Made by a program: the position numbers and the translations under genes | Shown here: positions 25,362 through 59,916 of the stretch, piece by piece | How positions within the stretch are numbered: position 1 is the stretch's first letter | Layout of the letters: every line of letters begins with the position of its first letter | Notes under the pieces: generated by a model | The model's database searches: none | What the model saw: only the letters and a program-made list of their open reading frames with translations | Told to the model about the DNA's origin: nothing | Assembly (NCBI RefSeq): GCF_014193655.1 | Contig: NZ_JACHZQ010000001.1 | Coordinates: forward strand, 310,001-374,000 | Reading direction: 5' to 3' | From: Rhizobium sp. BK313 | Lineage (GTDB): Bacteria > Pseudomonadota > Alphaproteobacteria > Rhizobiales > Rhizobiaceae | DNA length: 64,000 nucleotides

Positions 25362-25391
25362 AAAAAAGGGGGCCGATTGGCCCCCTTTTTT
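25362..25391 (-). terminator. Strong terminator of the DEAD-box helicase gene
   Basis: A perfect inverted repeat: AAAAAAGGGGGCC, a GATT loop, GGCCCCCTTTTTT. It is symmetric, so it can end transcription from either side. It lies directly after the helicase stop at 25399. Confidence 0.88.
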
Positions 25392-55474: not shown

Positions 55475-55849
55475 ATGCTCTATGCGATCCTATGCTACAA
55501 CGACGAAGACACCGTGTTTTCCTGGTCCAAGGAAGAGGAGCAGGTGACGATGGACCGGTTGATCGCGGTGCAGGCGCCGCTCGGTGAAGCCGGCAAGCTC
55601 GGCCCGGTCGCCCGGCTGATGCCGACAACGGCGGCAACGACGCTGCGCAAGGGCAAGAACGAGCCGCTCATCATCGACGGACCCTTCGCCGAGACGAAGG
55701 AACAATTGCTGGGCTTCTATGTCATCGACTTTGAGACGCTTGACGAAGCGATTGAATTTTCAAAGAAACTGGCCATCGCCAATCCTGGTGCCGGCTCCTA
55801 TGAGATCCGCCCGCTTCATGCCTTTAGACCGGGGACGATGGCAACATGA
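55475..55849 (+). CDS. DGPF/YCII-domain protein, ECF42 partner
   Basis: This 124-aa protein has the DGPF signature (IIDGPFAETKEQLLGFYVID) and opens MLYAILCYNDED. DGPF proteins are the conserved partners of ECF42 sigma factors and probably sense or transmit the activating signal; there is no anti-sigma factor in such loci. AAGGATG precedes the ATG. Its last four bases overlap the sigma factor start (ATGA), so the two are coupled. Confidence 0.92.
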   Translation: MLYAILCYNDEDTVFSWSKEEEQVTMDRLIAVQAPLGEAGKLGPVARLMPTTAATTLRKGKNEPLIIDGPFAETKEQLLGFYVIDFETLDEAIEFSKKLAIANPGAGSYEIRPLHAFRPGTMAT

Positions 55850-57102
55850 CGGATCTAGCCTGGATCGATATCGCGTTCACCAACGCCCGGCCGCAGGTGC
55901 TCGGCGCGTTGCTGCGGTATTTCCGCAATCTCGACATTGCCGAGGAAGCGTTTCAGGAGGCCTGCCTCAGGGCATTGAAGACATGGCCGGACAAGGGGCC
56001 GCCCCGCGATCCCGTTGCCTGGCTGATCTTCGTCGGCCGCAACAGCGGCATCGACGCGGTGCGCAAGCAGTCGAAGACGCAAGGCTTGCCGGACGAAGAG
56101 GCGATCTCCGATACTGGCGACGCCGAAAGCGATCTTGCAGACCGGCTCGACGGCTCCAACTATCGTGACGATATTCTGCGGTTGCTGTTCATCTGCTGTC
56201 ACCCCGACCTGCCGGCGACGCAACAGATCGCGCTGGCGCTGCGCGTCGTCTCCGGTCTTAGGGTGGCGCAGATCGCTCGTGCCTTTCTCGTCAGCGAAAG
56301 CGCGATGGAGCAGCGCATCACCCGCGCCAAAGCGCGTGTTGCTGCTGCCGGCATGCCTTTCGAGACGCCGGGTGCCGTCGAGCGGGCCGAGCGCGTGGCG
56401 CTGGTCAGTGCCATGATCTATCTCATCTACAACGAGGGCTATTCCGCCGGCGGGCCGGGCCGCGAGGCTTCTGCCTTTGCCGATGAGGCGATCCGATTGG
56501 GACGACTGTTGCTGCGCATCTTTCCGGCAGAGCCGGAGATCATGGGTCTGCTGGCGCTGATGCTGCTGCAGCAATCGCGAAATACGGCCCGCTTCGATGC
56601 AGACGGCCAGATCATCCTGCTGGAGGAACAGGACCGGTCGCTCTGGAACCGCAAATTGATCGACGAGGCGCTTGCTCTGCTCGACAAGGCAATCCGCCAT
56701 CGCCGCCCCGGACCCTATCAGCTTCAGGCCGCGATCGCGGCGCTGCATTCCAGGGCCAAGCGGGCCGAGGATACGGACTGGGCGGAGATCGATCTGCTCT
56801 ATCAAACGCTGGAGCGGCTGCACCCGTCGCCGGTCGTCACCCTGAACCGCTCTGTCGCTGTTGCCAAACTCAAGGGACCGGAGGAGGCGCTGGCATTGGT
56901 CGAGCCGCTGACGGACAAACTCGATTGCTATTTTTACTTTCACGGGCTTCGGGGCGCATTGCTTGCGCAGTTGGGCCGGCCGCACGAGGCGCACATTGCC
57001 TTCGATCGTGCCATCGCGCTTGCCCATTCACCCGCCGAAGCTGCCCATATCCGTCATCAGCTCGATCGCCTCAGCGCGGCGGCCCCGGCAGTCGCAAAAT
57101 AA
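55846..57102 (+). CDS. ECF42-type sigma factor with C-terminal TPR-like extension
   Basis: This 418-aa protein has an ECF sigma core in residues 1-170: region 2 (IDIAFTNARPQVLGALLRYF to PVAWLIFVGRNSGIDAVRK) and region 4 (LALRVVSGLRVAQIARAFLVSESAMEQRITRAK). A roughly 240-residue helical extension follows, with TPR-like character (for example LHPSPVVTLNRSVAVAKLKGPEEALALVE). The family hallmark LIYNEGYSA is at about residue 195. ECF42 factors carry this extension instead of a separate anti-sigma, and it controls activity. The DGPF gene upstream is the standard partner. Downstream SRPBCC and DoxX genes are probable members of the regulon. Confidence 0.92.
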   Translation: MTDLAWIDIAFTNARPQVLGALLRYFRNLDIAEEAFQEACLRALKTWPDKGPPRDPVAWLIFVGRNSGIDAVRKQSKTQGLPDEEAISDTGDAESDLADRLDGSNYRDDILRLLFICCHPDLPATQQIALALRVVSGLRVAQIARAFLVSESAMEQRITRAKARVAAAGMPFETPGAVERAERVALVSAMIYLIYNEGYSAGGPGREASAFADEAIRLGRLLLRIFPAEPEIMGLLALMLLQQSRNTARFDADGQIILLEEQDRSLWNRKLIDEALALLDKAIRHRRPGPYQLQAAIAALHSRAKRAEDTDWAEIDLLYQTLERLHPSPVVTLNRSVAVAKLKGPEEALALVEPLTDKLDCYFYFHGLRGALLAQLGRPHEAHIAFDRAIALAHSPAEAAHIRHQLDRLSAAAPAVAK

Positions 57103-57201
57103 TCGGAAAATTAGCCTCACGCATGTCGGGAAGAGGCTGCTTTCGGCGTCCTTGAGGCATAGGCCGATCAGGCCGTTTCAGACGAAAGAAAGGAACACGA
57201 C

Positions 57202-57672
57202 ATGACCGAACGGAATACCCGCCACGAGCTTTCTCTCACCCGCGTCATCGACGCACCGCGGGAGAAGATCTTCCGCTGCTGGACGGAAGCGGTGCTTGTG
57301 AAGCAATGGTTTGCACCACTGCCCTGGACGACTTCGGCGGCCAAACTCGACGTTCGTACCGGCGGCACAAGCTCAGTCACCATGCGCAGTCCCGAGGGTG
57401 AGGATTACCCGAACGTCGGCGTCTATCTCGAGGTGGTGCCGAATGAGCGGATCGTCTTCACGGATGCCTTCACCAGTGCTTGGGTGCCGTCGGCCAAACC
57501 CTTCATGGTGGGCACCATCCAGCTCGACGATCTCGGCGACGGCAAGACTCGCTATACCGCGACAGTCCTGCATTGGACGGCGGAAGATCGCGAAGCGCAT
57601 GAAAAGATGGGTTTTCATGAGGGGTGGGGCCAATGCACCGACCAACTGGCGGCTCTTGCTGCGAAACTCTGA
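57202..57672 (+). CDS. SRPBCC (AHSA1-like) domain protein
   Basis: This 156-aa protein is a full-length AHSA1-type SRPBCC protein: SLTRVIDAPREKIFRCWTE, VKQWFAPLPWTT, the central GVYLEVVPNERIVFTDAF, and the late TATVLHWTAEDREAHEKMGFHEGWGQ. The last segment is diagnostic for the family. It binds an unknown hydrophobic ligand. AAAGGAAC precedes the ATG. It lies 99 bases after the ECF42 gene on the same strand; SRPBCC genes are frequent targets near ECF42 and ArsR regulators. Confidence 0.88.
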   Translation: MTERNTRHELSLTRVIDAPREKIFRCWTEAVLVKQWFAPLPWTTSAAKLDVRTGGTSSVTMRSPEGEDYPNVGVYLEVVPNERIVFTDAFTSAWVPSAKPFMVGTIQLDDLGDGKTRYTATVLHWTAEDREAHEKMGFHEGWGQCTDQLAALAAKL

Positions 57673-57702
57673 ATTTCTGATTCAATTCCGGGGGATACAG
57701 CA

Positions 57703-58116
57703 ATGTCCTATGCAACAGAATCACCGTCCAGCTCGCGGGTACAGCGTGTGGCCGGCACTATTCTCAGCGGCTTGATTGTCGCCTTTCTTATTTTCGACGG
57801 CGTCATCAAGCTCATTCCTTTGCCTGTCGTCACAGAGACGATGGCAGCGCTCGGCTATTCCGGCGATCCGGCTTTGGCGCGGCTGCTCGGCGTCATCACG
57901 CTTGTCTGCGCCGTTCTCTATGCCATTCCGCAGACGTCGGTTCTCGGGGCGATCCTCCTTACTGGTCTGCTCGGCGGGGCGATGGCGACGCATCTCCGGG
58001 TCGCTAGCCCGGTGTTCTCGCATCTGCTGTTCGGTCTTTATCTCGGCGTCATCGCCTGGGGCGGACTCTATCTACGCTATGAAGCAGTTCGAAAAATGAT
58101 TCCGTTTATGCGCTGA
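57703..58116 (+). CDS. DoxX-like membrane protein
   Basis: This 137-aa protein has four hydrophobic helices (about residues 17-34, 58-73, 77-95 and 106-120) in the pattern of DoxX-like family proteins: GLIVAFLIFDGVIKLIPLPVV, then MAALGYSGDPALARLLGVITL. Function in this family is unclear; members take part in oxidative-stress or quinone-linked membrane complexes. GGGGGATACAG precedes the ATG. It follows the SRPBCC gene by 30 bases, so it is probably in the same transcript and possibly under the ECF42 factor. Confidence 0.85.
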   Translation: MSYATESPSSSRVQRVAGTILSGLIVAFLIFDGVIKLIPLPVVTETMAALGYSGDPALARLLGVITLVCAVLYAIPQTSVLGAILLTGLLGGAMATHLRVASPVFSHLLFGLYLGVIAWGGLYLRYEAVRKMIPFMR

Positions 58117-58138
58117 AGCTGTTGATTTTGGATTCGAT
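58097..58138 (+). repeat. Direct repeat flanking the acetyltransferase gene, copy A
   Basis: TGATTCCG, then about 15 variable bases, then GTTGATTTTGGATTCGATTT. A related segment occurs at 58706-58748 in the same orientation. The match is strongest over the last 20 bases. Copy A starts inside the DoxX-like gene. Confidence 0.45.
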
Positions 58139-58143
58139 TTGAT

Positions 58144-58180
58144 ATGGCTCGCTCCCTCATCTGTTCGTGGAGCGAGCCAT
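58144..58180 (+). promoter_or_regulatory. Hairpin enclosing the ribosome-binding site and start codon of the GNAT gene
   Basis: ATGGCTCGCTCC (58144-58155) and GGAGCGAGCCAT (58169-58180) form a perfect 12-bp stem over a 13-base loop. The right arm contains both the GGAG ribosome-binding site (58169-58172) and the first two bases of the ATG (58179-58181). If transcribed, the fold would block translation until melted or opened by another factor. Confidence 0.6.
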
Positions 58181-58691
58181 GCCACAAGTCATCATCGCAC
58201 CGGTCAGGCAATCGGATGCCGGCGAACTGATTGCGGCGAATGTCGCGAGCCGCGCTTACCATGAGCCATGGGCCTACCCTTTCGTGGATCGGGATGGCTT
58301 CGACGCCTGGTTCGGGCAGACCGTGACGGGATCCAATATCGGCCTGGTCGCGCGCGACGCCGGCTCAGGCGGCATTGTCGGGGTGGTCAATATCAGCCAG
58401 ATGGTCTGGGGTGGTTTCCGTAGCGCCTTTCTCGGCTATCACGGTATGGTGGCCTTTGCCGGCCAAGGTTTCATGACCGAGGCGTTGCGTCTGGCGATCG
58501 CCCACGGTTTCGACGATGTCGGCTTGCATCGGCTGGAGGCGAATATCCAGCCTGCGAACCATACCTCCATCGCGTTGGTGCAAAGGCTCGGCTTCCGCAA
58601 GGAGGGATTCTCGCCCAAATATCTGAAAATCGGTGGAGTCTGGTGCGATCATGAGCGCTGGGCTTTGCTGGCGGATGACCCACGCCTTTGA
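58179..58691 (+). CDS. GNAT acetyltransferase, RimJ/RimL type
   Basis: This 170-aa acetyltransferase shows the RimJ/RimL pattern: the RSAFLGYHGMVAFAGQGFMTEALRLAI core with acetyl-CoA-site glycines, HRLEANIQPANHTSIALVQRLGFRKEG, and the C-terminal YLKIGGVWCDHERWALL. Such enzymes acetylate protein N-termini, amino-sugars or antibiotics. The ATG at 58179 is chosen (GGAG 6 bases away) over a GTG at 58167. Both site and start lie in the right arm of a perfect hairpin. Short direct repeats flank the gene. Confidence 0.87.
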   Translation: MPQVIIAPVRQSDAGELIAANVASRAYHEPWAYPFVDRDGFDAWFGQTVTGSNIGLVARDAGSGGIVGVVNISQMVWGGFRSAFLGYHGMVAFAGQGFMTEALRLAIAHGFDDVGLHRLEANIQPANHTSIALVQRLGFRKEGFSPKYLKIGGVWCDHERWALLADDPRL

Positions 58692-58705
58692 TGTTCAACA
58701 TGAGG

Positions 58706-58748
58706 TGATTCCGAAGTAGCGAACAAAGCGTTGATTTCGGATTCGAAT
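58706..58748 (+). repeat. Direct repeat flanking the acetyltransferase gene, copy B
   Basis: TGATTCCG, a variable stretch, then GTTGATTTCGGATTCGAATT. It is the partner of 58097-58138. It may be a dispersed intergenic element of the genome or a trace of insertion of the acetyltransferase gene. Confidence 0.45.
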
Positions 58749-58854
58749 TAGAGGTCGCTATCAACTTCCTCGAACAAACCGTTCGACAATTCATATTTGC
58801 GATTTCCGCCTTGTCTTCTTATTTCGTCCGTCAACAACGGATGGATTTTTAATC

Positions 58855-59916
58855 ATGGAACTTGGCCTCTATACGTTCGCGGACGTCGATCCCGATCCCG
58901 CTCTCAACAAGGGCGCGGAAGCAGCGCGCCGCCTGAGGAATTTGATCGAGGAGGTTGAGCTGGCCGATCAGGTCGGCCTCGATGTTTTCGGGCTCGGCGA
59001 GCATCATCGGCCGGATTATGCGGCGTCGGCCCCGGCTGTCGCGCTCGCAGCGGCTGCGGCAAAGACGAAGACCATCCGACTGACTAGCGCTGTGACAGTG
59101 CTGAGCTCGGACGATCCGGTGCGCGTCTTCCAGCAGTTCGCGACGCTCGACCTCATTTCAAACGGTCGCGCCGAGATCATGGCGGGACGGGGTTCCTTCA
59201 TCGAGTCCTTCCCGCTCTTCGGTTATAATCTCGAAGATTACGACCAGCTTTTCGAGGAAAAGCTCGACCTGCTTTTGGCGATCCGCGACAGCGAGCACGT
59301 AAATTGGACGGGCGAACTCCGCGCGCCGATCCATGGGCGAGGTGTCTACCCTCGACCGCTGCAGGATCCATTGCCGATCTGGGTCGCGGTCGGCGGCACG
59401 CCGCAATCGGTGGCGCGTGCAGGTGCGCTCGGCCTGCCGATGGCGCTCGCCATCATTGGCGGCGAGCCGCGCCGGTTTGCCCCGCTTGTCGATCTCTATC
59501 GCGAGGCCGCCCGCCGCGCTGGTCAAGATCAGGCCAAGCTGAAAACCAGTATCAACGTCCACGGTTTCGTCGCCGATACGACAGAGGCGGCCGCTGATCA
59601 GTTCTACGGGCCGCAGGCCGAGGTGATGAACCGCATCGGCCGCGAGCGCGGCTGGGGGCCGACGACCCCTGCGCATTTCGAACAATCGCGCGGGCCGCAT
59701 GGCGCGCTCTTCGTCGGCGATCCCGAAGTGGTGGCGGAGAAGATCGTCGCTCATCACAAACTGTTTAGGAATGACCGCTTCCTGCTGCAAATGGCGATCG
59801 GCACAATGCCGCATGAGCAGATCATGCGCGGCATCGAGCTCTATGGTACGAAAGTCGCGCCGCTTGTCAGAAAGGCATTGACTGAACAAAGCGAAGAGGC
59901 GAAAGCGACGGCTTGA
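58855..59916 (+). CDS. LLM-class flavin-dependent monooxygenase
   Basis: This 353-aa luciferase-like protein opens [19 protein letters not shown] and has the [19 protein letters not shown] and [19 protein letters not shown] barrel segments. [34 protein letters not shown] follows, then [17 protein letters not shown]. Such enzymes use reduced flavin and oxygen to oxidise organic substrates. No partner flavin reductase is adjacent and no substrate can be named. The start lacks a strong ribosome-binding site but matches the family N-terminus. It precedes the aminopeptidase gene by 40 bases on the same strand. Confidence 0.88.

Follow-up and report, generated by a model that had tools for sequence, protein, structure and literature searches.

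How can an acetyltransferase gene be translated when its ribosome binding site and most of its start codon lie within one arm of a perfect inverted repeat, and does this repeat act on expression? The question arises from the window, by which we mean the whole stretch of 64,000 nucleotides analysed here from Rhizobium sp. BK313. The host belongs to the tropici/lusitanum/rhizogenes group of Rhizobium; among the named matches listed, Rhizobium sp. SEMIA4064 was the best, at 94% protein identity, in a list from which records very near the window's genome were perhaps left out.

The locus and its features

The features of the locus are as follows.

57703–58116, plus strand: DoxX-like gene (Pfam PF13564, E 5.8e-18)
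58121–58143, plus strand: conserved motif of the leader (GTTGATTTTGGATTCGATTTGAT in the window), lying 3' of the DoxX stop and 5' of the hairpin (93% mean pairwise identity, 27 leaders)
58144–58155, plus strand: hairpin left arm, ATGGCTCGCTCC (inverted-repeat search, fold)
58156–58168, plus strand: hairpin loop, 13 nt (inverted-repeat search)
58169–58180, plus strand: hairpin right arm, GGAGCGAGCCAT, holding the Shine-Dalgarno (SD) sequence GGAG (58169–58172) and the AU of the start codon
58179–58691, plus strand: GNAT acetyltransferase gene, 170 aa (Pfam PF13302, E 1.2e-19; translation)
58730–58749, plus strand: second copy of the leader motif, GTTGATTTCGGATTCGAATT, 3' of the GNAT gene (pattern scan)

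The gene behind the hairpin had been described as an acetyltransferase, and its Pfam match agrees. The nearest NCBIfam model is RimJ-type PRK10809, which it matches at 81.7 bits, well under the cut-off of 190. The start of the gene is considered to be sound because close orthologs align from residue 1 or residue 3. From the DoxX stop it is 27 nt to the left arm and 62 nt to the GNAT ATG, and a scan between the two genes (58116–58179) found no terminator-like site.

Two neighbouring features are recorded here. A sigma factor gene at 55846–57102, with sigma-70 regions 2 and 4 and DUF6596, which we take to be ECF42-like, is followed by AHSA1 and DoxX genes. In the leader of a luciferase-like monooxygenase (LLM) gene there is a perfect palindrome, TCGAAC-AAACC-GTTCGA (58770–58786), which is operator-like and is found in several relatives too.

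Geometry of the hairpin

The preliminary description reported a perfect 12-bp hairpin at 58144–58180, and the two arms are indeed 100% complementary and 13 nt apart. It also placed both the SD sequence and the start codon in the right arm. This holds for GGAG, six bases 5' of the ATG at 58179–58181, and for the A and T of the ATG; the G lies outside the arm. In the predicted fold of 58100–58240 the stem extends to 13 pairs, with a closing U-G pair between 58143 and the G of the ATG. Of 200 dinucleotide shuffles, five fold at least as stably and 195 less so (z −2.2).

A long palindrome is by itself weak evidence here, because perfect inverted repeats of at least 12 bp with loops of 3–20 nt are over-represented in the window (three, against 0.15 expected from 20 simulations with a first-order Markov model). 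One of the three, at 25362–25391, is terminator-like. What is unusual about the hairpin is its placement at a gene start rather than its length: only two of 739 called starts have a perfect stem of at least 10 bp lying over the start, and the GNAT start alone reaches 12.

Energy required to open the start site

These 739 gene starts were sampled from 800 kb of the same genome together with the window (864 kb). They were called heuristically, from open reading frame length, codon-position GC and SD sequence rather than by a trained gene finder, so that some of them will be wrong. The energy needed to open the region from −14 to +3 at the GNAT start is predicted to be 24.2 kcal/mol, the highest of the 739; across these approximate starts the median is 7.0 and the 99th percentile is 18.4 kcal/mol. 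The second highest value, 19.5 kcal/mol, belongs to a plus-strand gene at G000:C1:666993, whose ATG is paired in a long stem and which by eye looks like an FAD-dependent oxidoreductase.

The predicted structure thus has the SD sequence and start codon within a stable local hairpin, as in a cis-acting SD-sequestering stem-loop. Occlusion of the ribosome site, as first proposed, fits the predicted fold, the outlying opening energy and the pairing of three or four of the four SD bases in all 36 distinct orthologous leaders described below. We regard SD occlusion at the GNAT start as well supported by prediction.

The hairpin in orthologous leaders

A match to GNAT at 1e-40 was found in 40 of 148 genomes of the genus, three of them at only 59–60% identity. 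When the 36 distinct orthologous leaders were folded, all four SD bases were paired in 29 and at least three of the four in every one; at least eight of the 10 arm bases were also paired in all 36 predicted folds. A hairpin over the SD sequence is therefore retained in 36 of 36, as expected of an SD-sequestering element. With the loop left free at 8–20 nt, the 10-bp core is found in exact form in four of 100 genomes, always directly 5' of the GNAT gene, and on this ground we rejected a dispersed mobile hairpin.

Opening energies were also compared with a null in which the upstream leader was shuffled and the right arm kept. They exceeded the 95th percentile of the null in 27 of 39 leaders and its median in 37, implying that the ability to occlude has been kept on the whole, while individual pairs have not been strictly guarded. 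The ortholog energies vary widely, down to 6.3 (L012) and 6.6 kcal/mol (L057) when 160 nt of leader is included, and to a minimum of 2.8 kcal/mol when the leader alone is folded; the block would be mild in some species, such as these two. Opening energies are ordinary, at 4–7 kcal/mol, in the three homologs of 59–63% identity that were inspected (L016, L017 and L062). A fortieth leader, L166, carries a mismatch within the right arm. L153 (genome G059) has an internal deletion in its GNAT gene, and the SD sequence there is AGAG.

The loop is far more variable than the arms. Counted from the 10-bp core, it is 9–14 nt long in 31 leaders and 75–112 nt in the other eight of the 39 (L005, L011, L042, L046, L053, L122, L015 and L057), where inserts of about 60–100 nt lie in the loop and eight to 10 of the 10 core pairs are kept. 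These long loops occur in five places on the GNAT tree. At a threshold of E 1e-3, the 864 kb sampled from the window's genome contains two or three places similar to each of the inserts of five of the eight (L011, L042, L046, L122 and L057), and none similar to those of L005, L015 and L053. Searched for across the whole genome, 21 bases taken from the L042 insert gave 24 occurrences with up to two mismatches, and a pattern based on the L057 insert gave five. On this sequence evidence the long loops are at least partly repeats. Intergenic repeat elements, RIMEs among them, are known from rhizobial genomes, according to the part of the published account used here (PMC2573895); that the loop inserts are themselves RIMEs is not implied by this. 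By eye, reverse-complementing the loops of other clades (L010, L012 and L056 were compared) gives sequences like the loop of the window's clade (58156–58168), as if this loop had been inverted.

Conservation and covariation

Mean pairwise identity, taken over the 351 pairs of 27 leaders, is 0.93 for the motif, 0.815 for the left arm, 0.374 for the loop and 0.913 for the right arm, compared with 0.573 for fourfold-degenerate sites. Identity in the left arm is thus higher than at fourfold sites, and it drops where the arm ends. Selection is likely to be acting on the GNAT leader.

The preliminary description suggested looking for co-variation in related strains. This proved not to be significant: 61 of 500 shuffles reach the observed score, and there is one both-sided change against a shuffled mean of 0.6. 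The single case is a full compensatory change from G-C to A-U in L116, and there are G-U substitutions besides. Paired cells make up 90.7% in the 28 distinct short-loop leaders and 90.3% in shuffles. RNAalifold did not recover the 10-bp stem, giving instead a 4-bp helix that is shifted, together with two further short helices, with a total of −4.5 kcal/mol. By parsimony, 22 of 36 stem substitutions break a pair and 14 keep one. We therefore discarded covariation as proof of the GNAT stem. By prediction, the hairpin is a real, unusually strong and clade-conserved occluding element; its regulatory meaning is plausible but unproven.

The leader motif and the history of the locus

After the DoxX stop comes the motif GTTGATTTYGGATTCGAWTT, which occurs again 3' of the GNAT gene. 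Allowing no mismatch, TTGATTTYGGATTCGA is found in only two places in the genome, namely the copies at 58121–58143 and 58730–58749. A 24-base form with up to three mismatches has 44 places in 41 of the 148 genus genomes, and 42 of the 44 are, by position, at the GNAT/DoxX locus; the two places away from it are in G148 and G003. GNAT is flanked by a direct repeat of approximately 20–24 nt, both in the window (the 58730–58749 copy) and in L035, L037, L048, L052, L055, L056 and L116.

Relatives that lack GNAT retain DoxX and the LLM gene, and in seven of 10 DoxX–LLM gaps examined in such Rhizobium there is a different GC-rich inverted repeat with arms of 7–10. In other species the point 3' of the motif is occupied by toxin-antitoxin-like genes (for example L152 and L153) or by a GIY-YIG-like gene (L151), these families being assigned by eye. 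The post-motif point (L150–L163) resembles a recurrent insertion place, which can hold GNAT, toxin-antitoxin-like genes, a GIY-YIG-like gene or a GC-rich inverted repeat.

A second hairpin of this kind

The third highest opening energy of the 739 belongs to an unlinked gene on the minus strand at G000:C1:768190, which by eye encodes a MarR-GNAT fusion. Its SD-burying hairpin (L210; orthologs L211–L239 and L252–L257) stands just 3' of a TTGACTnAGTCnAA-like palindrome. Over the 30 nearest loci, its own included, GGAG is fully paired in 29 and paired at three of four bases in one. In 20 more distant loci the stem sequence differs, some having a long stem in the same place and others a short one or none that is clear.

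Taken by themselves, the 30 near leaders show no significant covariation. In a set of 20 chosen leaders, 13 both-sided cells were counted against 4.4 in shuffles, a value that none of 500 shuffles reached; the number of pairs with a both-sided change is not above that of shuffles (3 against 2.9). This is support rather than proof, because the set was chosen for diverged stems and kinship was ignored. The MarR-GNAT case suggests that hairpins of such design, burying the ribosome binding site, persist in Rhizobium. It is conceivable, if rather unlikely, that the two genes represent a Rhizobium class of leader hairpins in which the structure persists despite turnover of the stem sequence (MarR-GNAT) or the loop (GNAT), translation being released by a trans-acting opener or by an alternative start of transcription.

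What could open the hairpin

Three openers had been envisaged: temperature, translation of a leader and an antisense RNA. In the folding model the mean pairing of 58169–58181 is 0.99 at 42 °C and has fallen no further than 0.95 by 70 °C, which argues against the first. With no melting predicted at growth or heat-shock temperatures and 95% pairing at 70 °C, we rejected an RNA thermometer of the ROSE, fourU or hsp17 type; six loci searched against Rfam also gave no match to a described thermometer family at gathering scores. Leader translation fares no better, since an ATG at the start of the left arm, which is what was surveyed, is present in only eight of 39 leaders; a leader-peptide attenuator of the ermC type was rejected on the same count. 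The terminating DoxX ribosome is judged to stop too far away, at 27 nt from the left arm, to open the stem. For an antisense RNA, the same six loci had no Rfam match at gathering scores, a search to which a novel antisense RNA would be invisible; within 57600–59000 there was only a chance-level match to sR17 on the other strand (E 0.97, 15.6 bits against 36).

Two further classes were set aside. An intrinsic terminator was rejected as there is no T-run, ATGCCACAAGTC overlapping and trailing the stem, and no terminator-like match here. A DNA operator of fixed spacing is unlikely because the loops range from 9 to 112 nt. Our literature search found no account of an SD-sequestering hairpin at an acetyltransferase in Rhizobium, nor of a hairpin in a GNAT or MarR 5' UTR of that genus.

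Proposed mechanism and alternatives

We propose that the GNAT hairpin is a translation-limiting leader, the most likely of the readings weighed here, though one that we hold to be about evenly poised between right and wrong. The leader of the GNAT mRNA would form a GC-rich stem-loop, and its 3' arm would comprise the ribosome binding site along with part of the start codon. With this site buried, direct binding of the 30S subunit would be blocked and GNAT would be poorly translated; we infer both the fold in the cell and the lowered translation. The most likely role would be to keep levels of the acetyltransferase low, especially where transcripts run in from DoxX; such read-through transcripts would carry the hairpin, the scan between the two genes having found no terminator-like site. 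Either slow spontaneous opening or a shorter transcript without the left arm could be enough for expression.

The main rival is such a shorter transcript, starting within the leader. GNAT transcription would start in or after the left arm, the motif and left arm would be promoter DNA, and the mRNA would lack the left arm, so that the hairpin would form only on longer read-through transcripts or never. The motif is more conserved than the left arm, whose own conservation continues on from it, and the motif persists in L012, L048, L056 and L060, four genomes in which DoxX had no match at E 1e-30. Hexamer scoring of four leaders gave partial pairs, at best eight of 12 letters in L035 and seven of 12 in L001, with the downstream hexamer in the loop in these two; however, the best pairs differ among the four leaders, and a pattern scan of the plus strand over 57000–59400 found no sigma-70-like pair. 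A promoter would also have no need of the pairing between left and right arm, which most leaders retain. We consider this alternative unlikely, but the strongest of those weighed here.

It is less probable still that the palindrome is kept by mutation rather than selection, with template switching during replication renewing the arms and sometimes flipping the loop. By eye, the L001-clade loop in reverse complement (ACGAACAGATGAG) does resemble the forward loops of other clades (CTCGAACAAGGGT and CGCATGAATGAGA), and stem-breaking changes are common and tolerated. Copying from arm to arm would nevertheless erase the G-U pairs and mismatches that persist, and would leave to be explained both a left arm more conserved than fourfold sites and an opening energy above the shuffled median in 37 of 39 leaders. 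The least probable alternative is that the hairpin belongs to the 3' end of the DoxX transcript, serving in end stabilisation or processing and overlapping the GNAT start by descent: the GC-rich inverted repeats at the same post-motif place in GNAT-lacking Rhizobium would fit, but there is no T-run 3' of the hairpin, and it stays with GNAT in the four genomes without a DoxX match.

Returning to a translation-limiting leader, if the block is true then GNAT is held almost silent by a start that is harder to open than the 738 others sampled. The protein is nonetheless intact in many species, and how such a start gets used would be a directly testable question. The tolerance of loops of 75–112 nt, if true, would be a natural experiment on the distance between arms that is allowed in an occluding stem.

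Comparison with known systems

A leader hairpin that buries the SD sequence is an already known kind of element. In phage T4 the ribosome binding site of the lysozyme gene e is occluded on long transcripts and exposed on short ones, and the transposases of IS10 and IS50 are protected from read-through expression. Like these, the GNAT leader hairpin would silence transcripts arriving from upstream, the gene lying behind DoxX with no terminator-like site found between them. It differs in that an internal promoter for GNAT is only hypothetical, and in that the gene is not known as a member of a phage or insertion sequence.

Single-hairpin RNA thermometers, as presented in the parts of the published accounts drawn on here, include cyanobacterial hsp17 (PMC4477652) and ROSE-like elements (PMC3669281). 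The GNAT hairpin is unlike both in that its stem of 12 perfect pairs is free of internal bulges and loops and is predicted to remain 95% paired at 70 °C, and the gene behind it is not a heat-shock gene. As far as those same parts go, what it shares with them is a short leader hairpin over the ribosome binding site, which in hsp17 (PMC4477652), as in GNAT, buries the start codon too.
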